DNA from: Candidatus Saccharibacteria bacterium
Lineage (GTDB): Bacteria > Patescibacteriota > Saccharimonadia > Saccharimonadales > Saccharimonadaceae
NCBI GenBank assembly: GCA_016789455.1
Contig: JAEUQU010000002.1
Span: forward strand, 806,001-870,000
Direction of reading: 5' to 3'
Length of the DNA stretch: 64,000 bases
Shown: positions 5,139 through 50,285 of the stretch, piece after piece
How positions within the stretch are numbered: position 1 is the stretch's first letter
Layout of the letters: the number at the start of each line of letters is the position of its first letter
The notes under the pieces: generated by a model
Seen by the model: the letters and a program-made list of their open reading frames with translations, nothing else
Database searches by the model: none
What the model was told of the DNA's origin: nothing
Made by a program: the position numbers and the translations under genes

Positions 5139-5191
5139 ATGTATCAGTATAGCATGGGGTACCTCTGTTTCACCAATGCATGATACCTGCG

Positions 5192-5231: not shown

Positions 5232-5792
5232 ATGACTACTTCTGGAGTCGCTTTCGCTGCGCACGCCGGACAATCCGAGCGCCCAGCCCGCCTGCCCGGC
5301 GGTGAAGTTGACCGTGACCAGGAAATGCTTGTCGAATCCGGCGCCCTGGCCCATGCAGCCGAACATCTTGTACAGGCCGAAGCCGACCACATCTATCACG
5401 AGCCCGGCCAGCCGGAAACCAGCCTGGTCAGCGTTCTCACCCACGACATCGAGGGCAACGCCACCATCCTGACCATCGCCGAAACGCCGGACGACCTTGC
5501 CAAAGAAACCCACGTTCCGCCGCTGGTCATCACCCGGCAAGCCGAACACATGCAGTACGACGACGGCTCCGTCACCGTCACCGAGCAGTTCGTCCAGTTG
5601 GCCGGCCGCTGGCACAAGACGGTGCATGTCACCGAAAACGGCCGGCAATGGGCGCCGATCGAAGAACCGATCCAGGCCTTCGAGCTCTCCCAGCTGCGGC
5701 ACGGCCTCGAAGAGCCGGCACGCGTCTACCAGCCGCAGCGGCAGCAGTTTGCACCGCGCAGCACGGCTGACCAGTTTGAGCTGGCGGCGTAA
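5232..5792 (+). CDS. Hypothetical protein
   Basis: 186-aa soluble acidic protein that I do not recognise. No signal peptide, membrane segment or Cys motif. The middle (about residues 60-140) is rich in alternating Thr/Val segments and probably beta-stranded; the tail is Gln/Arg-rich. It has a consensus promoter and a leaderless start. It converges with the 5795 gene with only 2 nt between stop codons. Confidence 0.75.
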   Translation: MTTSGVAFAAHAGQSERPARLPGGEVDRDQEMLVESGALAHAAEHLVQAEADHIYHEPGQPETSLVSVLTHDIEGNATILTIAETPDDLAKETHVPPLVITRQAEHMQYDDGSVTVTEQFVQLAGRWHKTVHVTENGRQWAPIEEPIQAFELSQLRHGLEEPARVYQPQRQQFAPRSTADQFELAA

Positions 5793-8870: not shown

Positions 8871-8916
8871 ATAAGGATACACTCTCGACTGTGTAGAGGC
8901 CGCACCTTGTCAGCTT

Positions 8917-8946
8917 GTTATCTCATGTCAGTTCAACGACGAACTG
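8917..8946 (+). promoter_or_regulatory. Leader element of gene 8985: 5' pairing arm plus hairpin
   Basis: 8917-8931 (GTTATCTCATGTCAG) is complementary at 14 of 15 positions to 9703-9717 downstream of the gene. It overlaps a local hairpin CAGTTC/GAACTG (8929-8934, 8941-8946) with loop AACGAC, which recurs before three sibling genes. Confidence 0.75.
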
Positions 8947-8984
8947 GCACCATCACCGTGACCCACTACCCCCGAGGAGTTGCC

Positions 8985-9617
8985 ATGCACCGCCCCGATT
9001 CCCACCCCACGCCGCCCGTGACCACCGAACAGGCCTGGGCACCGACCGGCGACACCGGACGGCTGACCATCACCGCTCTCGATGGCAGGCCGGCCGAGTG
9101 CCTGCTGCGCTTCACACTGCCCCAGAACGGACGGCCGTTCGCCGCGCCGGGACTGCCCGGACCGCGCCTGACCATGGTGCGGTTCGACAAGGGCCAGCAG
9201 CGGGTGGCGTTCATGAGCACCGGACGCACCAGTCCGGTCGCCGTCGACTGGCTCGGGTACTCGGCCGACGGCCGGACGCTGGAGCTGCGCCTGCAGGGCA
9301 ACGTCCTCGACCACCTGCTGGTCGTCCTGGACGGGGACATCTGCGACAACCTGTTGTCCGCCGAGATCCTGCAGCACCCCGGCGACGAGCAGCCCCGGCA
9401 GCTGTTCGTCCCCATCCAGCCCGGCTACGCGGCCATACTGTCCGTGCTCAGCCCCGATGAAGACGGGCGGACGCTGAGTGTCTGCCCGGTCTTCGACCGC
9501 GCGCACGACACCCTGGCGGCAGCCCTGCTGGCCTGCGGCTGGGACCTCTACTCCCCCGACCCCGATGGGGACGAGCAAGAAGAGGAAGCAGAAGACTGGC
9601 TGCCCGTGCGGCCCTGA
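8985..9617 (+). CDS. Diverged TerD-like protein, copy 1
   Basis: 210-aa soluble protein. It shares a layout with the next two genes: a beta-rich N-terminal half, a D/S-ADGRTLELRL segment at about residue 95, a hydrophobic strand (LLVVLDGD), a strand pair resembling the TerD V-R-x-x-x-G-x-E block, and a C-terminal helix ending in CGWDLYSP. The resemblance to TerD folds is inferred from motif order, not from strong identity. The tail is acidic (DGDEQEEEAED). Start fixed by GAGGAG 5 nt upstream of the ATG. Likely part of the expanded Ter system in 8.8-20.6 kb. Composition is GC-rich compared with rpsB-tsf next door. Confidence 0.8.
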   Translation: MHRPDSHPTPPVTTEQAWAPTGDTGRLTITALDGRPAECLLRFTLPQNGRPFAAPGLPGPRLTMVRFDKGQQRVAFMSTGRTSPVAVDWLGYSADGRTLELRLQGNVLDHLLVVLDGDICDNLLSAEILQHPGDEQPRQLFVPIQPGYAAILSVLSPDEDGRTLSVCPVFDRAHDTLAAALLACGWDLYSPDPDGDEQEEEAEDWLPVRP

Positions 9618-9632
9618 GGTCCGGCGATGGCA

Positions 9633-9669
9633 GCTGCACCCCGGCATCATGATGGTGCCGGGGTGCAGC
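9633..9669 (+). terminator. 3' hairpin of gene 8985
   Basis: Perfect 13-bp stem GCTGCACCCCGGC/GCCGGGGTGCAGC with an 11-nt loop and no U-run. It may stabilise the 3' end or pause polymerase instead of ending transcription, because the 3' pairing arm lies beyond it. Confidence 0.6.
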
Positions 9670-9702
9670 ACCCCGCCCCTGCGTTCTGACAAAGACCGTG
9701 AC

Positions 9703-9717
9703 CTGACATGAGACAAC
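9703..9717 (+). promoter_or_regulatory. 3' pairing arm of gene 8985
   Basis: CTGACATGAGACAAC, the partner of the leader arm at 8917-8931 (14 of 15 complementary). See the corresponding finding. Confidence 0.7.
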
Positions 9718-9752
9718 AAGCTGCAGTCGGCACAGTATTGTTCTTTGACACC

Positions 9753-9786
9753 TTTATGCATCCGTGCCAGCTCACTGACGAGCTGG
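9753..9786 (+). promoter_or_regulatory. Leader element of gene 9831: pairing arm plus hairpin
   Basis: 9754-9770 (TTATGCATCCGTGCCAG) is complementary at 16 of 17 positions to 10491-10507. The overlapping hairpin is CCAGCTC/GAGCTGG with loop ACTGAC; compared with its siblings it has a compensatory T-A to C-G change in the stem. Confidence 0.8.
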
Positions 9787-9830
9787 CCGGTATCACTACA
9801 CTGCTACACCCGACCCCGAGGAGGGCCCGC

Positions 9831-10424
9831 ATGTCCCGCTACATTGCCAACAGCACCACCCTGCCGTTGCAGGATCCTGACGGTACGCCGGTGTCATCGC
9901 AGCTCAGCTTCACCCTGCTGAGCACCGACGGCACCACCCTGCCCCAGCTGATCGTCGCCTACAAGGCGCCCCGCACCGACGGTGAACCGAAGCGGCGGGG
10001 CGGCCCGGAAATGGTCATGGGCCACCAGGCCGGCCACCGCCCCGGCTGGCTCGACTTCTCGGACGACGGCCGCCAGCTGCGCCTGAGCCCGGGGTCCGGG
10101 GACGTCACCGGCCTGCTGGTGATGGCGCTGGTCTACGCGGGCAACAGCGGCCTGCTGGAGGTCCGGCTCACCACCGGCAGCCAGGAGGTGGCGCAGCCCT
10201 ACGAGCTGCAGCTCCTGGACGGCACCCGTGCCGTACTGGTGGCTGCCGCGCTCCCCGACCAGGCACTCCACGTGGCGACGCTCAACGCGCCGCGCCGGCC
10301 CGGCCTGGGCATGGCCATGGCCGACGCGGGCTGGGAGATGCCAGAGTCGGAGTCGTGGCAGGCGCGGCCTGCTCCCGGCACCGGCGGCGACTGGAGCGGC
10401 ATGCTCCATCCCCGCCAGCTCTGA
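9831..10424 (+). CDS. Diverged TerD-like protein, copy 2
   Basis: 197-aa soluble protein and the copy most like canonical TerD: strand LSFTLLSTDG, then WLDFSDDGRQLRLS, a DVTGLLVMALVYAG strand, and VRLTTGSQEVAQPYEL, which parallels the TerD block VRVxDxxTGxEIARYxL. It ends in a helix with MADAGWEMPES, the family tail. TerD proteins bind calcium and form stress-response complexes with TerC and VWA partners (family knowledge); the Asp ligands of classic TerD are not obviously kept here. GAGGAGG lies 6 nt before the ATG. Confidence 0.8.
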   Translation: MSRYIANSTTLPLQDPDGTPVSSQLSFTLLSTDGTTLPQLIVAYKAPRTDGEPKRRGGPEMVMGHQAGHRPGWLDFSDDGRQLRLSPGSGDVTGLLVMALVYAGNSGLLEVRLTTGSQEVAQPYELQLLDGTRAVLVAAALPDQALHVATLNAPRRPGLGMAMADAGWEMPESESWQARPAPGTGGDWSGMLHPRQL

Positions 10425-10443
10425 GCCACAGTGACACCGGCTT

Positions 10444-10476
10444 CACCCCGGCCGCGCCACCAGGCCGGCCGGGGTG
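10444..10476 (+). terminator. 3' hairpin of gene 9831
   Basis: CACCCCGGCC/GGCCGGGGTG, 10-bp stem, no U-run. Same position relative to the stop codon as the hairpins of the sibling genes. Confidence 0.55.
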
Positions 10477-10490
10477 GATCCGCCCCTGAT

Positions 10491-10541
10491 CTGACACGGA
10501 TGCATAACTTATTCATCCATGCCAGTTCAACGACGAACTGG
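10491..10541 (+). promoter_or_regulatory. 3' arm of gene 9831 abutting 5' arm and hairpin of gene 10584
   Basis: 10491-10507 pairs with 9754-9770. Immediately after it, 10509-10525 (TTATTCATCCATGCCAG) pairs with 11376-11392 beyond the next gene, and CCAGTTC/GAACTGG (10522-10528, 10535-10541) forms the family hairpin. The two adjacent arms can also fold on each other (GGATGCATA with TATTCATCC, one mismatch), giving an alternative local hairpin. Confidence 0.8.
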
Positions 10542-10583
10542 TTGGTATCACCCCCTGCCCACTCGCACACTCGAGGAGTAACT

Positions 10584-11294
10584 ATGCTATTCACGTTCGG
10601 CCCTGACAAGCAGTCCACCGTGCTGCAGCTCGACGGACCGGAGCGCATCCGGCCACAGGTGCCCCGCACCACGCTCAGCCTGACGGGATCCCTGGCGTCG
10701 GAAGAGCGGCCGGTCTTCATCATCGCCCACCGGGGCTACGACGAGCTCAACCGCGACCGGCCCGCCCACGTTCAGCCCCGCTGCCGGACACACATCGCAA
10801 TGAGCCACCCGTCCACCGCACTGCCCGATTGGGCGGTGCTGGACAACGACGGTCTGCAGCTGACGCTGACGCTCAACCCCGGACAGGTCGGCGCCCTGCT
10901 GGTACTCGTCCAGACCACGCAGTCACACCTCTGGCTCGACATGGAGACCGTGCTCAACGGTCGCGACATAGAGCGCCAGCGGATCCAGCTCCACGACGGC
11001 TACCGGCCCGTGCTATATGCACTGGCCAACCTCAGTCGGAGCTGCTGGCTGCACGTGGGCTACCTGAACAGTCCCGTCCGGACACAGCTGGCAGAAGCCA
11101 TGCAGGACTGGGGCTGGGAGCGGCCCGGGCTACAGGCCCACGCCGACCCGTCCCAGCCCGACCCCGAGCTGGTCGCCCGGTTCAGTGAACAGCTGCCCGG
11201 TCTGGTCGCAGAACTGCGCGAGCGGGGCCTGCTGGCTCCTACCCCGCTGACACTGGTCACCTCGGACACCGAGCACGACCTCCACCCGGAGTGA
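10584..11294 (+). CDS. Diverged TerD-like protein, copy 3
   Basis: 236-aa soluble protein, paralog of the two preceding genes. Shared landmarks are DNDGLQLTLTLNPG, LLVLVQTT, a strand pair, and the C-terminal AMQDWGWERPG. A further about 40-residue helical, Glu/Leu-rich tail distinguishes it. GAGGAG lies 5 nt before the ATG. The TerD relation is inferred from order of motifs. No separate promoter was seen, so it is probably co-transcribed from 8842. Confidence 0.78.
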   Translation: MLFTFGPDKQSTVLQLDGPERIRPQVPRTTLSLTGSLASEERPVFIIAHRGYDELNRDRPAHVQPRCRTHIAMSHPSTALPDWAVLDNDGLQLTLTLNPGQVGALLVLVQTTQSHLWLDMETVLNGRDIERQRIQLHDGYRPVLYALANLSRSCWLHVGYLNSPVRTQLAEAMQDWGWERPGLQAHADPSQPDPELVARFSEQLPGLVAELRERGLLAPTPLTLVTSDTEHDLHPE

Positions 11295-11301
11295 TACCGG
11301 C

Positions 11302-11392
11302 ATCGCCCCGGCCGCCACACAGGCCGGCCGGGGCGATGACCCACTCCCCCGCGCCACCGTGGCGCTGACTTTGACCTGACATGGATGAATAA
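11302..11392 (+). promoter_or_regulatory. 3' hairpin and pairing arm of gene 10584
   Basis: ATCGCCCCGGCC/GGCCGGGGCGAT (11302-11313, 11326-11337) is a perfect 12-bp hairpin. Downstream, 11376-11392 (CTGACATGGATGAATAA) is complementary at 16 of 17 positions to the gene's own leader arm at 10509-10525. Confidence 0.75.
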
Positions 11393-11407
11393 CTGATGGA
11401 AACGAAA

Positions 11408-11456
11408 AACCCCAGCCGGCGGTACTCATGCTGAGATTTTCCGCGCCGCTGGGGCT
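11408..11456 (-). terminator. Rho-independent terminator of the 12461-11455 operon
   Basis: On the minus strand AGCCCCAGCGGCG pairs with CGCCGGCTGGGGT (one bulge) and is followed by TTTTTCG. A classic terminator with U-run, unlike most of the plus-strand genes around it. Confidence 0.75.
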
Positions 11457-11973
11457 ATGAAAGAAGGTCCGGCCGCAGCCGTGGCGTGTAGTTGGCCAGC
11501 AGGCGACGGGCCAAACGGCTGATGGCCCGCCGCTGGCTGGCCGTACAGTGGCAGACCACCCGGTGCCGCACGCCGTAGCCGGGCCACCACATACGGTAGT
11601 GGCGCGTCTGGTCGGACTGGCCGCGCGCAGCCTGGACGAGCTGCTTCACCCGGGCGGACCGGCCGAACGGCAGGCGGACCTGGATGATGAGCTTGACGGT
11701 GTCGTCGTCGTCCTCGTCCTCGTCGTCATCGACCAGGCAGAGGTCGTCGGCAGCGGTATTGGAACTGTCGTACTCCGGATGGCCGGACTCGTCGTGACGG
11801 CCGGTGGTGTCCGTGCCGCTGTCGCGGGAGCCCGAGGCGCTCTCGCTGCCGTCGTTGTCGCTGCTCCAGCTCCGCTCGCGGCGGTTGCTGTCGTCAGCAC
11901 GGCTTGGACTGGTGTCCGAGCCGCCCGAACCGCCAAAAATGCCGGCCACCAGATCGAACAGGTCGTCGATCAT
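11455..11973 (-). CDS. Hypothetical acidic/basic bipartite protein
   Basis: 172 aa, not recognised. A short hydrophobic start (MIDDLFDLVAGIFGG) leads to a long Ser/Asp/Gly-rich, strongly acidic, probably disordered region with an Asp run (DDDEDEDDDD), then a basic C-terminal domain of about 80 residues with Cys/His (VVCHCTASQRR) and many Arg. The start at 11973 lies 5 nt after the stop of the preceding gene, implying coupling. Could bind nucleic acid through the basic part (inference only). Confidence 0.65.
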   Translation of the reverse strand: MIDDLFDLVAGIFGGSGGSDTSPSRADDSNRRERSWSSDNDGSESASGSRDSGTDTTGRHDESGHPEYDSSNTAADDLCLVDDDEDEDDDDTVKLIIQVRLPFGRSARVKQLVQAARGQSDQTRHYRMWWPGYGVRHRVVCHCTASQRRAISRLARRLLANYTPRLRPDLLS

Positions 11974-11978
11974 CGGTC

Positions 11979-12461
11979 TTAGATTCCCTTCTGCTGCTCG
12001 CGCGGGCGCGAGGCGATCCAAGCGATGATGTACAGCGTGGCCGCACTGGCCACCCCGCCCATCAGGACAGTGAGCAGCGCCGGCAGCCACTGGGTACCCT
12101 GCACGATGCGCAGCCCCAGGATGCAGGCCGAGGCGCTGAGCAGGATGAGTGCCAACACCGACGTCCGCACCACGTGCGGCACCTCGACGCCGAGATGGCC
12201 GATGCCCTCCTCGCGCGTTAAGGCGAGTTCATCCGCTTTGTTGACGCGCCGGTGGCGGACTTCACCAGCCACCGCAGCCACCAGCAGCACCGCAACGATG
12301 AGCTGCAGTACGGCCAGGATGACGTAGTTGTTGGCCAGGCCGTTGGGCGGCAGGCCGTCGACATCGTTGCAGGCGGCAATCATGCCGCCGGACAGCAGGC
12401 CGAGCAGCCAGATCGGCATTGGCACACCGAAGGCACGGCGCAGGCGCGATGAGCGCGTCAT
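11979..12461 (-). CDS. Hypothetical four-helix membrane protein
   Basis: 160 aa, not recognised. Four predicted membrane helices in two pairs: about residues 15-33, 45-70, 95-115 and 125-150, with a basic N-terminus (TRSSRLRR). Start chosen at 12461 because AAGGAG lies 5 nt upstream; the longer frame has no SD. First gene of a two-gene operon. The paired-helix layout recalls the membrane-protein family at 46.4-50.2 kb but sequence similarity is not evident. Confidence 0.72.
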   Translation of the reverse strand: MTRSSRLRRAFGVPMPIWLLGLLSGGMIAACNDVDGLPPNGLANNYVILAVLQLIVAVLLVAAVAGEVRHRRVNKADELALTREEGIGHLGVEVPHVVRTSVLALILLSASACILGLRIVQGTQWLPALLTVLMGGVASAATLYIIAWIASRPREQQKGI

Positions 12462-12469
12462 GTCACTCC

Positions 12470-12566
12470 TTACTAGGACGGCCGGGCAATGGTGCCCGGC
12501 GTTGGATGATGGCAGTGGCACTGCCGGACGCAATTTAGAATAGCGTATCTATACGGATATTGACAA
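12470..12566 (-). promoter_or_regulatory. Promoter and double-hairpin leader of the 12461 operon
   Basis: Minus-strand TTGTCA (12561-12566) and TATTCT (12537-12542), 18-bp spacer. The leader folds into two perfect hairpins, GGCAGT/ACTGCC with a 3-nt loop and GCCGGGCA/TGCCCGGC with a 4-nt loop, before the SD. Confidence 0.6.
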
Positions 12567-12588
12567 TACTTTTACTTCATTTTATATT
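12560..12588 (+). promoter_or_regulatory. Promoter of gene 12647
   Basis: Consensus TTGACA (12560-12565), 17 bp, TATATT (12583-12588). It overlaps the -35 region of the divergent minus-strand operon, so the two promoters probably compete. Confidence 0.7.
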
Positions 12589-12646
12589 ATTACCGTTCCT
12601 TCCCCCCGCCCGCTATTTCGGGCATGAGCGAAAGAGAGCATCCGCG

Positions 12647-13291
12647 ATGCACCCCCACATGGAGCAGCCCGTGCCCCGTCAGCGCTTCTGGCGCCGGCGC
12701 CCCTGGCCCACCGCCGGCGCGGCGCTGGTGCTGGCGTACCTGTTGTCGTGCGGCCTGGTGTACCTGCTGGGGCCCAGCGGTGACACCGTCCAGTACGGTG
12801 CGCGGGACTACGCAGCCGTCTTCGGCATCGTCGATGGCCAGTCGTACCCGTCCGCATCCACTGGTGAAGCCGGGCCGAGCGCCCGGCCCATCCACCTCGA
12901 CCCGCACGCCGGAAACGACTACGGCGACGGGCAGAACTGGGCGCTGACCATCGAGTACACCGAGCGCGGCCGGGCCCACCTGATCACCCTGGACTACACC
13001 ACGCAGGTGCGGGTGATCCACACCGCGCCGGGCGAGCAGCCCAGCGTCACCTTCCGCCTGCACCAGAGCCTGCCCGCCTACTCGGGGTACGACGGCCCGC
13101 ATCGCGTCCAGCCCGGCAACTTCTGGCTGTGGCAGTCGGGAGCTGTCGTGGCTCCGCCGGACATCACCCGCTCGAGCATGTGGCGGGACACGGTGTCCCG
13201 AGGCGGCCCGGGCGAACTCATGCCCAAGCTGGTGGACGTCGCCGAGGTGCGCGTGCCGGCCGGCACGCTGGACAGCCTCATCCGGGCCTGA
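12647..13291 (+). CDS. Hypothetical membrane-anchored extracytoplasmic protein
   Basis: 214 aa, not recognised. A basic N-terminus (QRFWRRRPWP) is followed by one hydrophobic helix (about residues 20-42) and a soluble domain of about 165 residues, rich in beta-type segments, presumably outside the cell. No Cys and no lipobox. Start at 12647 chosen because the longer frame begins inside the promoter. The SD is weak (AAAGAGAG). Confidence 0.72.
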   Translation: MHPHMEQPVPRQRFWRRRPWPTAGAALVLAYLLSCGLVYLLGPSGDTVQYGARDYAAVFGIVDGQSYPSASTGEAGPSARPIHLDPHAGNDYGDGQNWALTIEYTERGRAHLITLDYTTQVRVIHTAPGEQPSVTFRLHQSLPAYSGYDGPHRVQPGNFWLWQSGAVVAPPDITRSSMWRDTVSRGGPGELMPKLVDVAEVRVPAGTLDSLIRA

Positions 13292-13305
13292 GCGGCCCAT
13301 CCGCG

Positions 13306-13341
13306 GCGGTCAGCATTCCTCTCTCGAGGAGTGCTGACCGC
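13306..13341 (+). terminator. 3' hairpin of gene 12647
   Basis: GCGGTCAGCATTCCT/AGGAGTGCTGACCGC, 15 bp with one G-U, loop CTCTCG, followed by an AT-rich stretch that is already the next promoter. Confidence 0.65.
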
Positions 13342-13346
13342 CACTA

Positions 13347-13375
13347 TTGCTTTTTTAAGGTATTTGTGATATAAT
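13347..13375 (+). promoter_or_regulatory. Promoter of gene 13491
   Basis: TTGCTT (13347-13352), 17 bp, TATAAT (13370-13375), preceded by TTTGTGA. Same type as the promoter at 8842. Confidence 0.7.
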
Positions 13376-13414
13376 TATATGATACACTGTGTGGCCCTTT
13401 CCCAACCATTACCT

Positions 13415-13447
13415 TTATTGACTCATGCCAGTTCACTGACGAACTGG
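13415..13447 (+). promoter_or_regulatory. Leader element of gene 13491: pairing arm plus hairpin
   Basis: 13415-13431 (TTATTGACTCATGCCAG) is complementary at 15 of 17 positions to 14066-14082. The hairpin CCAGTTC/GAACTGG (13428-13434, 13441-13447) has loop ACTGAC. Confidence 0.75.
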
Positions 13448-13490
13448 CCGGCACATCGCGTACCACACGGTACCTGTCCAAGGAGCACCT

Positions 13491-14003
13491 ATGAGTAAGC
13501 CCCGCATCCTGACCATCCGCGAGACCGGTACCAACCCGGAGTTCGGCGACCCCCGCGCGGACCCGGCGCGGGCCATCCACGACGTCGACCTGCTCTGCGC
13601 CTTCGTCCTGCCCGGTGGCGACACTGGCATGACGGCAGGCCGTCCGCAGGACAGCGACCCCGCCTGGCTGTTCTACCACGAGGGTGACGACTACGTCGTT
13701 GCCGAGGGCGAAGCGGTACGGAGCGGCCGCCAGGTGATCTCCATCACCTCGGGCATGACCATCGACCTCGACCGCTGCGACGCCACCCGCCTCATCCTGC
13801 TCATCGCGTCCAACGCCACCGGCGGACAGATCACCATGGTGATGGAGGGCTTCTCCGACTCCATCGACATCCGTCAGGGCGTCATCGTCCTCGGTGAAGT
13901 CATCGGCGGTGAACGGTTCGAGCGCCGTCCGCAGCAGATGCACTTCACCGACCTGCAGGCGGCCCTGGAGGCCTACGGCTTCACGGTGCAGAACCCCACG
14001 TAG
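13491..14003 (+). CDS. Diverged TerD-like protein, copy 4
   Basis: 170-aa soluble acidic protein. Motif order matches TerD: DVDLLCAFVLPGG (TerD DLDxSAFLL), WLFYHEGDD (TerD FIFYNN), then IDLDRCDATRLILLIAS (TerD xDLxxVPADVxKIVFxV). It ends in LEAYGFTVQ, the counterpart of the GW tail in the other copies. The Asp-rich calcium loop is only partly kept. AAGGAG lies 6 nt before the ATG. The relation to TerD is inference from these aligned blocks. Confidence 0.8.
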   Translation: MSKPRILTIRETGTNPEFGDPRADPARAIHDVDLLCAFVLPGGDTGMTAGRPQDSDPAWLFYHEGDDYVVAEGEAVRSGRQVISITSGMTIDLDRCDATRLILLIASNATGGQITMVMEGFSDSIDIRQGVIVLGEVIGGERFERRPQQMHFTDLQAALEAYGFTVQNPT

Positions 14004-14018
14004 CGCGACGTGCCGGTC

Positions 14019-14082
14019 CTGGCCCCCTCCTCTATTCGTTTCTGGGAGGGGGCCAGGATTGTGCACTGACATGAATCAATAA
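14019..14082 (+). promoter_or_regulatory. 3' hairpin and pairing arm of gene 13491
   Basis: CTGGCCCCCTCC/GGAGGGGGCCAG (14019-14030, 14045-14056) is a perfect 12-bp hairpin. It is followed by the arm CTGACATGAATCAATAA (14066-14082), complementary to the gene's own leader. Confidence 0.75.
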
Positions 14083-16535: not shown

Positions 16536-16611
16536 CTGCCTGTCACGTTGTGTGACGGAACCAACCGATGCCGCCTCCAAAGGGTGGCCCGATCCATACG
16601 GAGGAACCGCG

Positions 16612-17490
16612 ATGAGCGGTGTGACCGTCGACCTCGACGACATCCTGGAGAAGACCGACGGCGACAAGCAGTTCGTCGACCTGGTGGAGATTTCCGCCGA
16701 CGAGCTCGAGAAGGCCGGCTACGACGGTGAAGGCAAGGTCGAGACCATCATCGGTATCGACATCAGCCTGTCGATGCAGGACGAGTTCGACGACGGTTCG
16801 GTGGACAAGGCGCTGCAGCTGGGCCTGGCCTACGCTTCGGTGCTCGACCCCGACCACCGGGCCGGTGTGTTCTTCTTCGGAGAGGGTGTCTACCGTGCCC
16901 CGCACGTCGACCTCCTCAACTACAAGAACTGGCTGCGGCGGAACAAGCGACACCTAGAGAGCTACACCCACCTGGGCGCCGGCATGGAGCTGGCGGTTCG
17001 GATGGCGGCCGAGGAGGCCAAGTGCCCGCGCATGGCAGACGTGCTCAACTACCGCGTCGCCACGCCGGCACTGTCCAGCGCCCCCGCTCCGCGCCAGAGT
17101 CGCTGGAGGATGGGGCGATGGAGCACCCCGGCGGCTGCCGCACCGCAGCAGCCCGGCCTCGAGCCCATTCCGGGCAAGCCGGTGAAGACCCTCATCTTCA
17201 CCGACGGGCTGCCGCACGACAAGCCGAAGGCGGAGCGCACGCAGTTCGTGTCGTCCTGGACCACGAAGTTCTGGTCGTACGTCTACGTCAGCAACCAGCC
17301 GGGCGGCGCGGACTACCTGCGCACCCTGGACAACCAGCCGGGCCGCTACGCCGACAACTCCAACATGGCGTCGTTCCCGAGCTTCCAGGACCTGCAGCCC
17401 GACGCCTTCGCGGCCGCGGCCGCCAAGGACTTCGGCCCCTGGACGCAGTTCGTGCGTAACCCGCAGAACGGGCTGTACCTGGCCGCCTGA
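16612..17490 (+). CDS. TerF-type VWA domain protein with intact MIDAS
   Basis: 292 aa. After about 45 residues of acidic N-terminus, a VWA domain of the TerF/TerY type starts: IIGIDISLSMQDEF supplies DxSxS of the metal ion-dependent adhesion site, SYTHLGAGM the Thr, and LIFTDGLPHD the Asp. An Ala/Pro-rich insertion (about residues 165-195) lies inside the domain. Ends with LYLAA. VWA partners couple to TerD/TerC in Ter systems (family knowledge). GGAGGAA lies 6 nt before the ATG at 16612. First of three VWA genes in tandem. Confidence 0.87.
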   Translation: MSGVTVDLDDILEKTDGDKQFVDLVEISADELEKAGYDGEGKVETIIGIDISLSMQDEFDDGSVDKALQLGLAYASVLDPDHRAGVFFFGEGVYRAPHVDLLNYKNWLRRNKRHLESYTHLGAGMELAVRMAAEEAKCPRMADVLNYRVATPALSSAPAPRQSRWRMGRWSTPAAAAPQQPGLEPIPGKPVKTLIFTDGLPHDKPKAERTQFVSSWTTKFWSYVYVSNQPGGADYLRTLDNQPGRYADNSNMASFPSFQDLQPDAFAAAAAKDFGPWTQFVRNPQNGLYLAA

Positions 17491-17573
17491 CGCGGCAACA
17501 ACACAACCGAGGCGCTTCGCGCGCCACCTCCGGACTCGGATTCCTCAGGGACTCCCAGGGCCCGGAGCCACCT

Positions 17574-17625
17574 ACGGGGTGGCCCCTTCCCGGCTTCGGC
17601 TGGTGGAGGGGTCACCCCCTTCAAA
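17574..17625 (+). terminator. 3' hairpins of VWA gene 1
   Basis: GGGGTGGCCCCTTCC with GGAGGGGTCACCCCC forms a long stem followed by TTCAAATT. A preceding CTCCGG...CCGGAG hairpin (from 17529) carries TTCCTC in its loop, complementary to GAGGAA of the gene's SD (6 bp, may be chance). Confidence 0.6.
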
Positions 17626-17690
17626 TTCCAGCCGTTCTTATCACTCTTATCAGCTTATAGTAACTATATTTTAAATACTAAAAATAATTG

Positions 17691-17719
17691 TTGACATAAA
17701 ATCCAGTATGTAGTAATGT
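17691..17719 (+). promoter_or_regulatory. Promoter of VWA gene 2
   Basis: TTGACA (17691-17696), 17 bp, TAATGT (17714-17719). Confidence 0.65.
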
Positions 17720-17795
17720 CTTAAAGTCATCCGCGAACGTGTGGGGTGGCATCAACGCTCCGGGGCTACGGCTTCGGACCGACGGAAGGTATTCC

Positions 17796-18383
17796 ATGGG
17801 CAAGAGCAAGATCAACGTCGCCATCGTCATCGACGGCGGCGACACGCTGCAGGGCGAGCGCAAGAGCGGCCTCCTGCAGGAGATCGTCGCCGAGACGGGC
17901 CTGGCCCTGGCGGACCGCGACACCGACGGCATCGCGCCGGTGGTGCTCGCGGGCAGCCGGGTCATCCCGGCCGGCGACATCAACCTGCGCGAGCTGGAGA
18001 CCGACATCCTGCTCGACGGCATCAGCGGGGTGACCCGCCTGGCGCCGGCCATCGAGGCCGCGTCCCTGGCGCTCCCCGCCGGTGAGCCCGGCGCCATCGC
18101 CGTCGTCAGCGACTTCCAGGTCGCGGACGAGGACGAGGTCTGCGACCTGGTGCTGCGGCTCGGTCAGCAGGGCAACCGCTTCCTGCTCAACGTGCGCGTC
18201 AGCGACGCCGAGGGCGGCGCGGACTTCGCCCAGAAGCTGGACGACCTCGGCGAGGGCGAGAACGACGTGTGCGACACCGTGCACGCCACCGACGACACCG
18301 GCGCGCGCCTCGAGGACGTCCGCGGCGTCGTCGGGCGCGAGCTCGACGAGTGGGCCGCCAAGGTCACCAAGATCAGCGCGTGA
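17796..18383 (+). CDS. VWA-like protein with degenerate MIDAS, copy 2
   Basis: 195 aa. The TerF-type VWA fold is recognisable by order: INVAIVIDGGDTLQ in place of IDxSxS, a SGVTRLAPAIEAA helix in place of the Thr segment, and AIAVVSDFQVADED in place of the TDG strand. The Ser residues of DxSxS are replaced (DGGDT), so the metal site is probably altered. It lacks the N-terminal extension and the insertion of copy 1. ATG at 17796 with GGAAGG 7 nt upstream. Confidence 0.82.
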   Translation: MGKSKINVAIVIDGGDTLQGERKSGLLQEIVAETGLALADRDTDGIAPVVLAGSRVIPAGDINLRELETDILLDGISGVTRLAPAIEAASLALPAGEPGAIAVVSDFQVADEDEVCDLVLRLGQQGNRFLLNVRVSDAEGGADFAQKLDDLGEGENDVCDTVHATDDTGARLEDVRGVVGRELDEWAAKVTKISA

Positions 18384-18480
18384 CCCCCGGTCACCGTGCG
18401 CAGCCGCGCGCTGGTGACCACCATCCCAACAGGGGTGGCTCCTTTCCGGCTCCGGCCGTGGAAGGGGTCACCCCTCTTCT
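18384..18480 (+). terminator. 3' hairpins of VWA gene 2
   Basis: Two hairpins: GGTCACC...GGTGACC with an inner GCGC pair just after the stop, then GGGGTGGCTCCTTTCC with GGAAGGGGTCACCCC followed by TCTTCT. Confidence 0.6.
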
Positions 18481-18513
18481 AATTTCAGGGGGGGTAGCGC
18501 CACTTTTCAACAA

Positions 18514-18542
18514 TTGACAAAAACATATTATTATAGTAATAT
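18514..18542 (+). promoter_or_regulatory. Promoter of VWA gene 3
   Basis: TTGACA (18514-18519), 17 bp, TAATAT (18537-18542). The leader has three hairpins: GTCAC/GTGAC, GCAGCCGGCA/TGCTGGCTGC (one G-U) and CCTG/CAGG. Confidence 0.7.
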
Positions 18543-18633
18543 ACCGCGAGTCACCAACCGTGACGATGCAGCCGGCATCCATGCTGGCTGCGTAGGCGCC
18601 TGCTATCAGGCACGAGTTCAGGGAGTTTTTCCA

Positions 18634-19242
18634 GTGTCCACCCAGCGTATCTTCAACGCGGCAATCATCCTGCACGGCGGCGAGAGCTACGCCCGTGAGC
18701 TGCGCAGCGGCCTGCTGCAGCGGGTCTTCGGCGAGACCGTCGTGGCCCTTCGGGTCTACGACACCGACCAGATGGTGCCGCTGATCGTCGCCCGGGACCA
18801 GCCCATGGAGCACGGGCCCATCAACCTCGCCCAGCCGCCGACGGTGGCCACGTTGCTCGAGCGGCGGACCTACGGCCGGGTGGCCCTGGCCCCCGCCCTG
18901 CAGATGGCGCTCGACGAGCTGCCGGCGGACCAGCCGGGGATCGTCACCATCATCAGCGACTTCCAGATCACTGACGCCGAGCAGTTCATCGCCCTGATCG
19001 ATGAACTGGCCCTGTCGCCACGGCAGGTCTTCATCAAGCTGGTGTTCGCCACCGGCGACCAGGACGGCGACGACAAGCTGCCGCAGATGCTGGACGACCG
19101 CCATATGGGCGCCAGCGACAAGGTGGACGCCGTCTACGCCACCCACTTCGGGGGCGACGAGCACGAGCCGGTGCGCGAGCACTTCGGCCGCGAGGTCGAC
19201 GTGCTGGTCCGCCAGATCGAGCGGGCGGCACGCCGGCGCTGA
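18634..19242 (+). CDS. VWA-like protein with lost MIDAS, copy 3
   Basis: 202 aa, paralog of copy 2. FNAAIILHGGESYAREL replaces the MIDAS strand (first Asp changed to His), YGRVALAPALQMALDEL the middle helix, and VTIISDFQITDAEQF the third strand. With Asp1 lost it is unlikely to bind metal like a classic VWA. The start is a GTG at 18634, supported by AGGGAG upstream; no in-frame ATG fits. Ends in a basic helix (RQIERAARRR). Confidence 0.82.
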   Translation: MSTQRIFNAAIILHGGESYARELRSGLLQRVFGETVVALRVYDTDQMVPLIVARDQPMEHGPINLAQPPTVATLLERRTYGRVALAPALQMALDELPADQPGIVTIISDFQITDAEQFIALIDELALSPRQVFIKLVFATGDQDGDDKLPQMLDDRHMGASDKVDAVYATHFGGDEHEPVREHFGREVDVLVRQIERAARRR

Positions 19243-19248
19243 GCCAGC

Positions 19249-19337
19249 CTCGTCCGCAGGCCATGCGGACAGCCCACAGGGGCGACCCCTTCCCCGGACC
19301 ACATCCGGACGGAAGGGGTCGCCCCTCTTCCATTTTC
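19249..19337 (+). terminator. 3' hairpins of VWA gene 3
   Basis: GTCCGCA/TGCGGAC just after the stop, then GGGGCGACCCCTTCC with GGAAGGGGTCGCCCC followed by TCTTCC. Same two-hairpin plan as VWA genes 1 and 2. Confidence 0.6.
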
Positions 19338-46340: not shown

Positions 46341-46398
46341 CTGGTGGCGCATGCGCGGCCGGACAGACCGGCCCGCTTGAGACGAAGGAGAAACCGCC

Positions 46399-46650
46399 AT
46401 GACTGCCGCATCAGGGGCAGGCCTGCCCCGGCGCCGCCGGCTCGGCGTCCGCATCCCCACCGTGGAGCAGTTCAACCTGGGCCGGGCCGTCTTCGTACTG
46501 GTCCTGCTGAACTGGGCATTCCCGCTGCCAGTGGCAATGCTGATGCTGGCACCGTTCGGTGGCGTGCCGGGCAGCCTCATCGCAGTCAGTGCTGCCACCG
46601 TACTGTTGTTCGCAGGCATCTGCCTGGCAATCAGCACCGAGACCTCGTAG
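46399..46650 (+). CDS. Small two-helix membrane protein
   Basis: 83 aa. Basic N-terminus (RRRRLGVRIP) and two membrane helices (about 28-50 and 55-78). Not recognised. AAGGAG 8 nt before the ATG. First gene of a pair; the second begins 32 nt after the stop codon. Confidence 0.72.
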   Translation: MTAASGAGLPRRRRLGVRIPTVEQFNLGRAVFVLVLLNWAFPLPVAMLMLAPFGGVPGSLIAVSAATVLLFAGICLAISTETS

Positions 46651-46667: not shown

Positions 46668-46681
46668 GACAGGAGGCATGC
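46668..46681 (+). promoter_or_regulatory. SD region of gene 46682, complementary to its 3' UTR
   Basis: GACAGGAGGCATGC pairs with GCGTGCCTCCTGTC at 47149-47162: 14 contiguous pairs with one G-U. Confidence 0.8.
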
Positions 46682-47125
46682 ATGCACTCCCCCGGCTCCA
46701 CCCCCTTTCCCGCCCGGCCGGTTATCAGCCGCCGGGCCGGCTGGTGGCTCGGCGGACTGCTGATCGTGGCGGGTCTGGGCTATCTGTATGCCGGCACCGT
46801 GCCCGGCGCGATGGCCCTGGTCTGCCTGGGGTTGCTTTCGGCGGTGTGCGTCTCACGGCCCGCCGACATCAACCATCAGCCGGACGAACCCGACGCACCG
46901 CCATCCAGCACCGAACTCTCGGCGCCACACAGCCCGACTTCCCACATCGTGGCCTACATCATCGGCTGCGCGGTACTGCTGCTGCTTGGCATGGGCACGC
47001 TGCTGGGCGGTGCGCTGATACTGTCGGGCGTGCCCGGCGTCGACCAGAGTGCCATCGGCGGAGCGGCCGTCATCCTCATCGCCATCACCAGCATGGCCGT
47101 GGCTATCCGCAGCCTGATCCGCTGA
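46682..47125 (+). CDS. Small membrane protein, array family member B
   Basis: 147 aa with four predicted helices in two pairs separated by a polar loop (HQPDEPDAPPSSTELS). The C-terminal helix and tail (ILIAITSMAVAIRSLIR) match the end of the four downstream proteins. It lacks the N-terminal HDPxxCxxC motif. Start ATG at 46682, 5 nt after AGGAGG; another ATG at 46678 is out of frame and overlaps the SD spacer. Confidence 0.75.
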   Translation: MHSPGSTPFPARPVISRRAGWWLGGLLIVAGLGYLYAGTVPGAMALVCLGLLSAVCVSRPADINHQPDEPDAPPSSTELSAPHSPTSHIVAYIIGCAVLLLLGMGTLLGGALILSGVPGVDQSAIGGAAVILIAITSMAVAIRSLIR

Positions 47126-47128
47126 AGC

Positions 47129-47171
47129 GGTCGCGCGGACGGGCGGCCGCGTGCCTCCTGTCCGCGTGACC
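47129..47171 (+). terminator. 3' hairpin of gene 46682 with anti-SD loop
   Basis: GGTCGCGCGGAC/GTCCGCGTGACC stem (one G-U); the loop carries the segment complementary to the gene's own SD. Confidence 0.75.
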
Positions 47172-47180
47172 GTCTATATA

Positions 47181-47209
47181 TTGACAATGGCCGCATCTTT
47201 TTATGTAAT
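47181..47209 (+). promoter_or_regulatory. Promoter of gene 47272
   Basis: TTGACA (47181-47186), 17 bp, TGTAAT (47204-47209). The leader begins with hairpin AGAAGTG/CACTTCT (47219-47225, 47242-47248), shared in form with the next three genes. Confidence 0.7.
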
Positions 47210-47271
47210 ACAGCTTATAGAAGTGTGCAGGGACCTCCTCCCACTTCTGCACATCGAGACAGGGAGACCTT

Positions 47272-47856
47272 TTGTCCACCGCGAGTGACATGCCATCCGC
47301 CAGCCACAACCATCAGTGCGGCACGCCCGACTGCGCCACCTGCATCATCGCGGGTATCAAGGGCCTGCCGCCGGCCCGCGTCGACCGGCGCTCCAGGCCC
47401 GACCGGCATATCCGGCGGGCACTGGCGCGCCACAGCCGGCCCGGGCGGCCAAAGCGGTCCAAGCATACGGAGCGCCTTGGCTTCACCACCATGTTGGTCG
47501 TCCTGCTGGGTTTGGGCGGCCTGACCCTGCTGGGTCTTGGTGAGTACGTCTACGGCGGGCTGTGCCTGGCCGCACTGGCCGTCCGGGCCATGGAACAGTG
47601 CCTGCGGCCGGATGAAGCGTACCCGCCCACCGCCGAACAGCCGCCGTGGTCCAACAGCTTCGTCGCCAATCCGGCCAGCCGGCTGGAGCTGGCGGCCATC
47701 GTCATCGTGATCCTGGCGGCCTGCGCCCTGGCGCTGGTGGGCACGGCCGCACTGCAGATCGACAGCCCGATTGCCCTGATGCCGGGACATGGCATGGCCA
47801 TGATCGGCACCGCCGTCTTCATCATCTGGCGCTGCGCCAGGATGCTGCGGCGATAG
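47272..47856 (+). CDS. Membrane protein with N-terminal Cys/His motif, member C
   Basis: 194 aa with TTG start. Cytoplasmic N-terminus with HNHQCGTPDCATCII (Cys-x4-Cys-x2-Cys with nearby His), a basic Arg/Lys-rich linker, then four membrane helices in two pairs and a tail AVFIIWRCARMLRR. The motif could bind zinc or iron (inference). AGGGAG lies 5 nt before the TTG; no in-frame ATG is as well placed. Not recognised as a known family. Confidence 0.75.
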   Translation: MSTASDMPSASHNHQCGTPDCATCIIAGIKGLPPARVDRRSRPDRHIRRALARHSRPGRPKRSKHTERLGFTTMLVVLLGLGGLTLLGLGEYVYGGLCLAALAVRAMEQCLRPDEAYPPTAEQPPWSNSFVANPASRLELAAIVIVILAACALALVGTAALQIDSPIALMPGHGMAMIGTAVFIIWRCARMLRR

Positions 47857-47862
47857 CAGTGG

Positions 47863-47933
47863 CGCGTGCGGCCGGGATTCCCTGTCTCACGCGGCCAGAC
47901 CGCTTGATCGGATGATCGAGCTGCCTGGCCGCG
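47863..47933 (+). terminator. 3' structure of gene 47272
   Basis: CGCGTG/CACGCG hairpin (47863-47868, 47888-47893) whose loop holds TCCCTGTCTC (47879-47888), complementary to GAGACAGGGA at 47256-47265. Then GCGGCCAG pairs with CTGGCCGC (47925-47932). Confidence 0.75.
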
Positions 47934-47979
47934 TGGCGCTTCGCATGGGCGCCTTCAATGCCTGCTTATGCTTATTTTA

Positions 47980-48008
47980 TTGACAAAATAACATTTTTTT
48001 GATATAAT
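47980..48008 (+). promoter_or_regulatory. Promoter of gene 48080
   Basis: Fully consensus: TTGACA (47980-47985), 17 bp, TATAAT (48003-48008). Leader hairpin GAAGTG/CACTTC (48018-48023, 48046-48051) with inner GTGGGC/GCCCAC. Confidence 0.8.
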
Positions 48009-48079
48009 ATATTCACTGAAGTGTGTCTGTGGGCAGCCCGCCCACCACTTCCGTTCCTGAGACAGAGGAGCCACGCACT

Positions 48080-48565
48080 ATGCCGGTCACCGGCCAGCAC
48101 TACCCCGCCAGCCCCGCTGGCGAGCCTTCCCACGACCCCCGGGAGCTGATCGATCACATGCCGACCGAATCACGTGCCTACGGGCTGCCCTTCGTGGGCG
48201 CCTGCGTCAGCTTGACCGTCGGCATCGTCCTGCTGGTCATCGGCCAGACGTTCTACGCCCTGCTGATGACGACGCCGTTCGCCGCCTTCCTGTACGCGGG
48301 GCTCTGGACCCCCACGGGACAGCGGCGCACCGCCAATCACAGCAGTGAACAGATCGAGCCGGCACCGCCGACGTCGCCGATGCGGCGCACCATGCTCTTC
48401 GGGGCGTTCGGCCTGAGCGGTGTCTTCATGACGGGATCGGCGGTGTTCTGCCTGGCCTTCCTGAGCGTCGGACAGCCCGTCACTCTGGACTGGCCGCAGA
48501 GCGTCCTGCTGTGCCTCGCCGGCCTGTACCACATCTGGCGCGCCGTCCGACTGATGGCGCGCTGA
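48080..48565 (+). CDS. Membrane protein, member D (degenerate Cys motif)
   Basis: 161 aa. N-terminal SHDPRELIDHM sits where the sibling proteins have GHDPxxCxxC(I/L); the two Cys are replaced by Leu and His. Four membrane helices in two pairs follow, separated by a polar linker, and a tail LYHIWRAVRLMAR. GAGGAG 9 nt before the ATG at 48080. Confidence 0.76.
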   Translation: MPVTGQHYPASPAGEPSHDPRELIDHMPTESRAYGLPFVGACVSLTVGIVLLVIGQTFYALLMTTPFAAFLYAGLWTPTGQRRTANHSSEQIEPAPPTSPMRRTMLFGAFGLSGVFMTGSAVFCLAFLSVGQPVTLDWPQSVLLCLAGLYHIWRAVRLMAR

Positions 48566-48570
48566 GGTGG

Positions 48571-48645
48571 CGCGTGCGGCCGGGGGTCATGGCCCTCTGT
48601 CTCACGCGACCTGTGTCTTCAACGTGTTTGAAGGTGCGGGTCGCG
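48571..48645 (+). terminator. 3' structure of gene 48080
   Basis: CGCGTG/CACGCG hairpin with GGCCCTCTGTCTC in the loop (48591-48603), complementary to GAGACAGAGG(A)GCC at 48059-48072 (13 pairs, one bulged A). CGCGACC (48605-48611) then pairs with GGTCGCG (48639-48645). Confidence 0.78.
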
Positions 48646-48684
48646 TATTGCAGCTTTTTACAAACTGATTCTTCTCACGCTTAT

Positions 48685-48713
48685 TTGACAAAATAAGATA
48701 TTTTTGCTATAAT
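48685..48713 (+). promoter_or_regulatory. Promoter of gene 48780
   Basis: TTGACA (48685-48690), 17 bp, TATAAT (48708-48713). Leader hairpin GGAGTG/CACTTC with inner CGGG/CCCG. Confidence 0.8.
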
Positions 48714-48779
48714 ATAAGTATAGGAGTGTGTCAGCGGGACCAACCCGCCACTTCTGCAATTTGAGACAGAGGAGCCACT

Positions 48780-49367
48780 GTGCCTTCCATGACTGGACGC
48801 TGCCCCGGCGGCCACGATGACGAGCCGGGCCACGACCCCAACACCTGCGCCGACTGCATTCTGGGCAGCATGAACCCCGAGACGCCCATCGAACCGAGCC
48901 CGGCCATCAAGCGGCCGGTCCGGCCGGCGGATGACCAGACGACACCGGGCGTTCACGAGCGGACCCCCGCCCCGGCGGAGGACGTGCGCACCGGGCGCAG
49001 CGTCGGCCGCGTCATGCTGGGGTACGTCTCCTGGGCACCCTTCGCCATCCTGCTCGCCTTGGGCGAATGGATGTATGCGACCGTGGTCATCGTCGTCGGC
49101 ATCACCGTGCTGATCGACGGCCTGGACATCGGGCAGGCGCCGCTCGCGGGCCACCCCCGCAGTGAACGGCGGCCTGGCGCGCTACTCATCCGGACGGTGC
49201 CATGCGTGCTGCTCCTGTGCTGTGCCGGTGGCATGCTCTGGTTCGGCGCGGGCTACCTGACGGTGGGCTACAACCCGCTGGACCTGACCCCGGCCCAGGG
49301 CCTCACGCTGCTGATCAGCGGCGCCTTCGTGGCCATCCGCTGCGGCACACTGCTCGCCCGCAAGTGA
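48780..49367 (+). CDS. Membrane protein with HDPxxCxxC motif, member E
   Basis: 195 aa with GTG start. N-terminal RCPGGHDDEPGHDPNTCADC motif (three Cys, several His), Pro-rich linker, then four membrane helices in two pairs and a tail AIRCGTLLARK. GAGGAG lies 6 nt before the GTG. The motif is likely a metal site (inference). Confidence 0.77.
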   Translation: MPSMTGRCPGGHDDEPGHDPNTCADCILGSMNPETPIEPSPAIKRPVRPADDQTTPGVHERTPAPAEDVRTGRSVGRVMLGYVSWAPFAILLALGEWMYATVVIVVGITVLIDGLDIGQAPLAGHPRSERRPGALLIRTVPCVLLLCCAGGMLWFGAGYLTVGYNPLDLTPAQGLTLLISGAFVAIRCGTLLARK

Positions 49368-49373
49368 CGCACT

Positions 49374-49462
49374 CGCGTGCGACGGGGGCGGCCAGCCCTC
49401 TGTCTCACGCGACCTATGGTTTCAAATATGGCAAGTGCCGCCATTTGAAATCATGGGTCGCG
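49374..49462 (+). terminator. 3' structure of gene 48780
   Basis: CGCGTG/CACGCG hairpin with GCCCTCTGTCTC (49395-49406) in the loop, complementary to GAGACAGAGG(A)GC at 48763-48775. CGCGACC (49408-49414) pairs with GGTCGCG (49456-49462), enclosing ATTTGAAA/TTTCAAAT. Confidence 0.78.
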
Positions 49463-49496
49463 ATACAACTTATTAGTTTGAACGACTTGACTTTTA

Positions 49497-49525
49497 TTGA
49501 CAAAAATTTATTTTGTTATCAAGAT
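49497..49525 (+). promoter_or_regulatory. Promoter of gene 49593
   Basis: TTGACA (49497-49502), 17 bp, weak CAAGAT (49520-49525). Leader hairpin AGAAGTG/CACTTCT (49534-49540, 49561-49567) with inner CGGG/CCCG. Confidence 0.6.
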
Positions 49526-49592
49526 GATGCCATAGAAGTGTGCCTACGGGAAGTTCCCGCCACTTCTTGAGTATTCGAGACAGAGGAGCGCC

Positions 49593-50204
49593 ATGACCAG
49601 TACCGGTGATTTTGACATTCCCGAGAACCACGAGAGCCTGCCCGGCCATGACCCCGCTGAGTGTATCTGGTGCCTGATGAGGCAGGCCGGCCCTGCGCCG
49701 CAACCAGGAGGCAGTCCGGCCGGTCCGGGCCTGCGCCCGCCCGGCCGCCAACACGATGAGACCAGGCTGTTGCCCGGCAGCTTGGCGGGTCCCCGGACCC
49801 TGATAGGCAGGACCCGCATCGGGATGGGCGCGGTGGCCATAGTGGTCGCCATCGCCGTGTTCTTCGATGGGCAGGCGGGCTACAGCATCGCCTTACTGCT
49901 GTTCGGCATTACCTTCATCACCGATGGGTCACGCGTAGGGCTAGCCCCCTTCAACCGGACCCGTCGCCGCAATGAACGGGCAGCCAAGCACACCGATTGG
50001 CGCACGCTGTCACGGCGCCGGGAAGTGATACGGGGCATCATCTGCCTGGCGATCTTCGTCATGGCAGTGGGCGCCGGCGTGGCTGGCGGCATCATCTTTG
50101 CCGGTGACGATCAGCCGCCATTCCCCGCCGCCTCCGGTGCGGCCATGGTGGTCAGCGCCCTGGTGTCGCTCTATCGCCTCTCCGTCATCCTGTTCAAGGA
50201 CTAG
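49593..50204 (+). CDS. Membrane protein with HDPxxCxxC motif, member F
   Basis: 203 aa. N-terminal LPGHDPAECIWCLMRQ motif, a Gly/Pro-rich linker, two membrane helices, a basic loop (RTRRRNERAAKH), two more helices and a tail VSLYRLSVILFKD. GAGGAG 5 nt before the ATG. Last gene of the tandem array. Confidence 0.77.
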   Translation: MTSTGDFDIPENHESLPGHDPAECIWCLMRQAGPAPQPGGSPAGPGLRPPGRQHDETRLLPGSLAGPRTLIGRTRIGMGAVAIVVAIAVFFDGQAGYSIALLLFGITFITDGSRVGLAPFNRTRRRNERAAKHTDWRTLSRRREVIRGIICLAIFVMAVGAGVAGGIIFAGDDQPPFPAASGAAMVVSALVSLYRLSVILFKD

Positions 50205-50207
50205 GCG

Positions 50208-50285
50208 GGTCGCGCGCGGCAGGGGCGGCGCCCTCTGTCTCACGCGACCGAAGCATTGAATATTTCATTAAATGTTTCGGTCGCG
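50208..50285 (+). terminator. 3' structure of gene 49593
   Basis: GGTCGCG (50208-50214) and a downstream GGTCGCG (50279-50285) can each pair with CGCGACC (50243-50249). The loop of the first hairpin holds GGCGCCCTCTGTCTC (50227-50241), complementary to GAGACAGAGG(A)GCGCC at 49577-49592 (15 pairs, one bulged A). Confidence 0.8.

Follow-up and report, generated by a model that had tools for sequence, protein, structure and literature searches.

Pairing between the 5' and 3' untranslated regions (UTRs) of one bacterial mRNA is known so far from a few individual genes, and according to a review of 2021 its wider applicability needs further study (PMC7821165). In the icaR mRNA of Staphylococcus aureus, a UCCCCUG motif of 7 nucleotides (nt) in the 3'UTR pairs with the Shine-Dalgarno (SD) sequence of the same mRNA (PMC3868564); for the hbs mRNA of Bacillus subtilis, a 14-nt 5'/3'UTR interaction is reported (Braun et al. 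2017, as cited in PMC7821165); in the hok and aapA toxin mRNAs, pairing of the 5' and 3' ends masks the SD of the full-length mRNA (PMC6733600); and OppZ and CarZ of Vibrio cholerae are reported to be autoregulatory small RNAs (sRNAs) derived from 3'UTRs (PMC7398697). The kind of interaction is already established by icaR, hbs, RNAIII, hok and aapA. Here we analyse a 64,000-nt stretch of the genome of a Candidatus Saccharibacteria bacterium (G000:C2:806001-870000, hereafter the window), in which genes of an array, W1-W6, carry complementary boxes in their 5' and 3' UTRs. In units of this type both sides of the pairing have changed together over about a dozen genera, so that the mRNAs probably clamp their two ends together. 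Saccharibacteria are very small bacteria; the genome to which the window belongs has 1.44 Mb and a GC content of ~59%, and the array is flanked by two minus-strand genes, nrdR and ftsZ. The FtsZ protein is most similar, at ~70% identity, to entries for Candidatus Saccharibacteria.

Complementary boxes at both ends of single genes

A sequence-only reading of this DNA had reported that five consecutive genes, W2-W6, each carry a 3' segment complementary to their own SD region, and all ten segments are indeed present, on the plus strand like the other features of the two arrays located below. In W2, whose open reading frame (ORF; 46682-47125) encodes a membrane protein of 147 amino acids (aa), the 5' box (box5, GACAGGAGGCATGC, 46668-46681) overlaps the ribosome-binding site (RBS) and forms 14 pairs, one of them a U-G wobble, with the 3' box (box3, GCGTGCCTCCTGTC, 47149-47162), which lies within a strong local hairpin. 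W3 (47272-47856, TTG start, 194 aa, with an N-terminal CxxC motif and hydrophobic segments) has 10 pairs between GAGACAGGGA (47256-47265) and TCCCTGTCTC (47879-47888). The remaining three units have 10-11 contiguous pairs, or 12-15 when the helix is continued beyond an A that bulges from the 5' strand: GAGACAGAGG(A)GCC (48059-48072, overlapping the RBS) with GGCCCTCTGTCTC (48591-48603) around the W4 ORF (48080-48565, 161 aa), GAGACAGAGG(A)GCC (48763-48776) with GCCCTCTGTCTC (49395-49406) around the W5 ORF (48780-49367, GTG start, 195 aa), and GAGACAGAGG(A)GCGCC (49577-49592) with GGCGCCCTCTGTCTC (50227-50241) around the W6 ORF (49593-50204, 203 aa, N-terminal CxxC motif), a diverged paralogue of W5. 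The core box is identical in W4, W5 and W6, which therefore do not represent three independent changes.

When the two stretches compared, one 5' and one 3', were shuffled with dinucleotide frequencies preserved, the observed length was reached in 0-3 of 2000 shuffles per gene. We further compared the RBS (-25..0) to 60 nt of 3' sequence in 401 SD-bearing genes, sampled from ~60% of the genome. The longest match was 3-8 nt in all but nine of them, and complementarity of at least 10 nt was found in six: W2-W6 and one unit at an unrelated locus (L094, ~4900-5350), all with GACAG-type boxes. The L094 unit has a GAGACAGAGG box at the RBS and consists, in order, of a promoter-like sequence, a 5' hairpin, the RBS box, a small hydrophobic ORF, box3 and a hairpin. 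With the 3' window widened to 90 nt, at least 10 nt were reached by 8 real genes vs. 1 reversed-sequence control, whereas with wider windows and wobbles allowed (score of at least 12) the counts were 30 real vs. 22 reversed controls, lone pairs of 11-13 nt being about equally common in both. Since lone pairs of 11-13 nt are common in controls, no single pair is decisive; the weight rests on the run of five, their fixed position, their recurrence and their covariation. Pairing of the box3 of one gene with the box5 of the next was also considered and set aside, cognate pairs being at least as strong.

Covariation across genera and the conserved 3' hairpin

The ftsZ-nrdR slot of a genome of the same genus (G001) holds two units, with boxes GAGACAGAAGA and GAGACGAGGG, and that of G023 holds one, GAGACAGAAGG, around an unrelated 93-aa ORF. 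A search for the 3' hairpin pattern added G129 and G141, whose boxes match with G-U wobbles. A covariance model (R1) of GTCTC and the 3' hairpin, from which the variable part of the box was left out, matched 22 of 394 genomes of one Saccharibacteria family, in 12 genera (E ≤ 0.01; some of the weaker matches are without a partner box), and a search of 344 order-level genomes with R1 gave matches in that family only. The new R1 units carry other boxes (GAGACAGAGAG, AGGCAGGAGA, AGGCAGGAGAAAT, AGCAGGAGTGAT and GACAGCGCAA), each of which pairs with RBS or 5'UTR sequence of its upstream gene. In most R1 units, across up to 12 genera, the boxes differ yet fit their own RBS or 5'UTR, and in this class of units (class I) the box is almost always at the RBS.

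In hand-built alignments centred on the boxes, which an artificial linker joined, six distinct 10-nt boxes had 5 of 10 pairs changed on both sides (96.7% paired vs. 88.6% when shuffled). Among 15 distinct 11-nt boxes, 10 of the 11 pairs were changed on both sides and 93.3% of cells were paired, vs. 66% in shuffled and 35-55% in slid alignments; the score was reached by 0 of 500 shuffles, a shuffle-based figure that kinship of the sequences inflates. The mean duplex energy was −23.1 kcal/mol for cognate and −14.8 kcal/mol for non-cognate pairs, and none of 100,000 reassignments was as good. The gene-specific covariation that the sequence-only reading had claimed for the array is thus borne out both there and across genera.

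In these units box3 adjoins a conserved 3' hairpin, which emerges from an alignment of the 3' elements and itself covaries, with 11 of 17 pairs changed on both sides. R1 places it at 47884-47933 in W3 (54.1 bits; the match takes in the GTCTC of box3), 48599-48645 in W4 (60.5 bits), 49402-49462 in W5 (53.4 bits) and 50237-50285 in W6 (58.7 bits). A segment of 5-9 nt in the class I 3'UTR is in turn complementary to the box3/hairpin junction and may constitute a third arm: CGCGTG at 47863-47868 in W3 and at 48571-48576 in W4, TCGCGTG at 49373-49379 in W5, and GGTCGCG at 50208-50214 in W6. In most cases it precedes the end of box3 by 19-28 nt, with similar spacing in ~14 of 20 units, and its pairings (CGCGTG with CACGCG, TGCGAGAGA with TCTCTCGCA, CGCGAG with CTCGCG) cannot coexist with the outer pairs of the box helix or with the base of the 3' hairpin. 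The individual p-values range from <0.005 to 0.47 and are ≤0.07 in 12 of 20 units, a spread that makes the putative third arm suggestive and not established.

Two further arrangements occur among the units. That of G073, which by score and model positions corresponds to L220 (UBA6572), adjoins ftsZ and spans an apparent three-gene operon, with box5 before the first gene and box3 after the third. In a class I unit on the reverse strand of L049 (G001), the box, at 2388, precedes the ORF start by 46 nt; immediately downstream of the box begins a short GTG ORF, whose end overlaps the main start as ATGA, and the box may thus serve a leader peptide. The ORFs of the units L049, L050, L130 and L133 have a GC content at third codon positions (GC3) far above that of their genomes (0.71-0.81 vs. 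a median of 0.46 in G001; 0.78 vs. 0.50, from few genes, in G023), which suggests that they are foreign or under unusual selection for codons. Most of the remaining G001 genes with high GC3 have no convincing box.

Predicted closure and boxes outside the ribosome-binding site

Folding of full-length transcripts, with ends guessed from promoter-like and hairpin sequences, predicted closure of the 5' and 3' ends in all but one of 26 units, and the box helix had a probability of 0.60-1.00 in every analysed unit except W2, including W3-W6. When the helix forms, predicted RBS accessibility falls from 0.48 to 0.26 in W3 and from 0.29 to 0.15 in W6, compared to a scrambled box3; compared to a transcript cut before box3, it falls from 0.47 to 0.09 in the unit G129C and from 0.45 to 0.29 in G141C.

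The window contains a second set of such genes, X1-X4, at 8.9-14.1 kb (8911-14082), which was missing from the earlier reading. Here the boxes are 17-21 nt long and end 53-60 nt upstream of the start codon. X1 has a 21-nt box5 (8911-8931) that ends 53 nt upstream of the start, off the RBS, and has one mismatch with its box3 (9703-9723; ORF 8985-9617, 210 aa). The other three have 17-nt boxes, with one mismatch in X2 (9754-9770 and 10491-10507; ORF 9831-10424, 197 aa, a paralogue of X3) and X3 (10509-10525 and 11376-11392; ORF 10584-11294, 236 aa), and two in X4 (13415-13431 and 14066-14082; ORF 13491-14003, 170 aa). Among the four units, 7 of 17 pairs are doubly changed. A hairpin of the CCAGTTC..GAACTGG type recurs after box5 in these orphan genes.

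Comparable units are found elsewhere in G000 (L088, L098, L093 and L165), in G001 (L133 and L130), in G009 (L121) and in G141, where a dprA-topA array has CTTTTGA-type boxes; over the X array and these loci, the boxes outside the RBS have 11-21 nt. The units L098u (G000) and L133u (G001), from sister species, encode homologous proteins and have wholly different boxes of 15-16 nt, each perfectly paired. The gene at L093:6003-5283 carries 5'/3' boxes twice, in a nested arrangement: TCCTGACTATTTACTG, paired with two wobbles, and GACAAGGTAGC. A scan that required an upstream promoter and long boxes (score of at least 12) gave 17 real hits vs. 1 control in the first ~1.5 Mb sampled, and 3 real hits vs. 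2 controls in a further 400 kb of G000, so that the units appear clustered and not evenly spread; a plain genome-wide excess of 5'/3' complementarity was not found with greedy gene picks. Scan matches inside coding sequence (L087u, L090u, L162u, L164u and L176) were dropped as chance.

As to the other parts of the array, each of W3-W6 apparently combines a separate promoter-like sequence, a 5' hairpin and an RBS box of the GAGAC type before the ORF with box3 and a long 3' hairpin after it; in W4, a sigma70-like promoter (TTGACA-17-TATAAT, 47980-48008) is followed by a GAAGTG...CACTTC hairpin (48018-48051). W2 shares an upstream promoter-like sequence with W1 (46399-46650), a small membrane ORF of 83 aa that the earlier reading had overlooked and with which a W1-W2 operon probably begins. 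At 46379-46398, a hairpin and a GAGACGAAGGAG box (GAGAC, at 46379) lie on the 5' side of W1, which has no matching 3' box of its own. For the unit products, no Pfam or NCBIfam family scored above any cut-off, and no relative of the W6 protein was found in the genome contigs, so that the products look like orphans; Rfam had no match at the gathering threshold within the window. At 16594-19330 there are three more ORFs, each with a separate promoter-like sequence and with GC-rich 3' hairpins of a similar kind.

Probable end clamps, rival explanations and known systems

Complementarity, fixed position, cross-genus covariation, the conserved 3' hairpin and predicted helix formation were computed here. 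They point, from sequence, to cis-acting clamps of mRNA ends, an explanation that we consider probable. The box in the 3'UTR would pair with its 5'UTR counterpart on the same molecule; a class I helix would have the 5' hairpin and the conserved 3' hairpin on its outer side, closing the transcript into a loop. As box5 overlaps the RBS in class I, a completed and released mRNA could be translationally closed, and the nascent transcript would be open to translation because its 3' end is still missing. RNase III, whose gene is present in the genome, could also cut the box helix, and pairing by the third arm may compete with the clamp and keep it open. We infer that the clamp forms in cells, that translation is lowered after release and that the third arm switches between states. 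End-to-end clamping would then be the common property, with SD masking as the special case of class I. An extension of this mechanism, which we think unlikely, is a dedicated system that would keep the mRNAs of many genes with atypical codon usage as closed, translation-silent loops, stored and then opened by a signal (e.g., contact with the bacterium that is their host) through unit-specific boxes and the third-arm switch.

Several results weigh against this explanation. Predicted RBS accessibility did not change in W4 and W5 compared to a scrambled box3, and for the 14-nt pair of W2 the long-range helix was not predicted, because the box3 side is held in the local hairpin; the transcript ends used for folding were guesses throughout. 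Long-range folding yields the helix in W3-W6 and not in W2, and closure of the RBS, as expected if the full-length mRNA hides its own SD, is predicted clearly for some class I genes (W3, W6, G129C and G141C) and not for W4, W5 or W2. In the X array and in further units of G000, G001, G009 and G141, box5 is upstream of the RBS, whose accessibility it is not predicted to alter, so that RBS masking is not the common denominator; a pairing limited to the SD and to membrane genes, as first described, is too narrow. Of the genes in the tricistronic G073 unit, only the first has an RBS that could be masked. R1 matches in G009 and G190 have no convincing partner, the units were partly chosen by complementarity, and kinship of the sequences inflates the shuffle-based measures of covariation.

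The main rival to a cis clamp is control of stability as for hbs, in which the helix and its flanking hairpins would shield the mRNA ends from RNase Y and exonucleases and the RBS overlap would be incidental. This is possible, if on the whole unlikely: it fits both classes, including the units with box5 off the RBS and the G073 mRNA clamped end to end, hairpins do flank the helix, an RNase Y gene is present in the genome, and the 14-nt interaction of hbs is a precedent, whereas the placement of the class I box, nearly always at the RBS across genera, is not one that a pure stability role needs. Autoregulation in trans, by a 3'UTR (box3 and hairpin) freed as an sRNA that represses its own and sister mRNAs, is improbable. 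Although a box followed by a hairpin resembles an sRNA seed and the boxes of W4-W6 are interchangeable, most of the hairpins have no obvious U-tract, and the neighbouring paralogues W2, W3 and W4 have boxes that diverged and are still cognate, which favours pairing in cis.

Less probable still is that the boxes are inverted repeats of DNA, either ends of invertible or mobile cassettes or operators, with RNA pairing as a by-product. One type of UTR does frame unrelated ORFs at the nrdR-ftsZ slot of different species, the unit ORFs have atypically high GC3, and the type of wobble (G-U vs. A-C mismatches, judged by eye) gives no clear preference for RNA pairing; yet the ORFs are in promoter orientation in all units examined, the boxes are not surrounded by a target-site duplication, repeats of 10-15 nt offer little length for homologous recombination, and the box positions are fixed relative to promoter, RBS, stop codon and the covarying hairpin. 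A system resembling type I toxin-antitoxin modules of the hok/aapA kind, with an inert full-length mRNA activated by 3' trimming, would follow the same long-distance anti-SD logic, and the third arm could be its metastable element. We nevertheless regard it as very improbable, because the predicted products, of 61-356 aa and varied properties, do not look like small toxic peptides; nor was an antisense gene noticed, although no search was aimed at one. Chance, or constraint on the SD alone, could account for lone pairs of 11-13 nt, which reversed controls yield about as often across the genome, but is hardly credible for the whole, given the shuffles, the covariation of 15 boxes, the reassignment of cognates, the 401-gene sample and the 90-nt reversed control.

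The units amount to a naturally replicated experiment, a structured RNA family spread over genera of a single clade, with the two pairing partners repeatedly rewritten and their complementarity kept. The second gene set, with boxes that avoid the RBS, makes a general role of end-to-end mRNA closure directly testable alongside class I, and the family offers an opening onto post-transcriptional control in the little-studied Patescibacteria. A limited search of open-licence literature found no paper on elements of this type in Saccharibacteria, and a family of clamps that evolves this fast and extends through a lineage appears to be undescribed.

Comparison to the known systems shows likeness to each of them in part. 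As in OppZ and CarZ, 3'UTR sequence would act on the mRNA of its own gene; the agent there is a trans-acting sRNA, whereas the cognate specificity found here points to cis. The hok and aapA mRNAs have the kind of end pairing over the SD that is predicted here, and competing structures, and differ in that they encode small toxins and have antisense RNAs, neither of which was noticed here (no search was aimed at an antisense gene). Like hbs, as summarised in the review cited, the units pair their two UTRs over ~14 nt within an mRNA, in a genome that encodes RNase Y; hbs is, however, a single conserved gene, and the genes here evolve fast and are without assigned function. The likeness to icaR is in an anti-SD segment of the 3'UTR, which in icaR pairs over a long range with the SD of the same mRNA, and in RNase III, which is encoded here too; in contrast to that single gene with its 7-nt motif, we find here an array and a multi-genus family, with covarying boxes of 10-15 nt and a conserved 3' hairpin.

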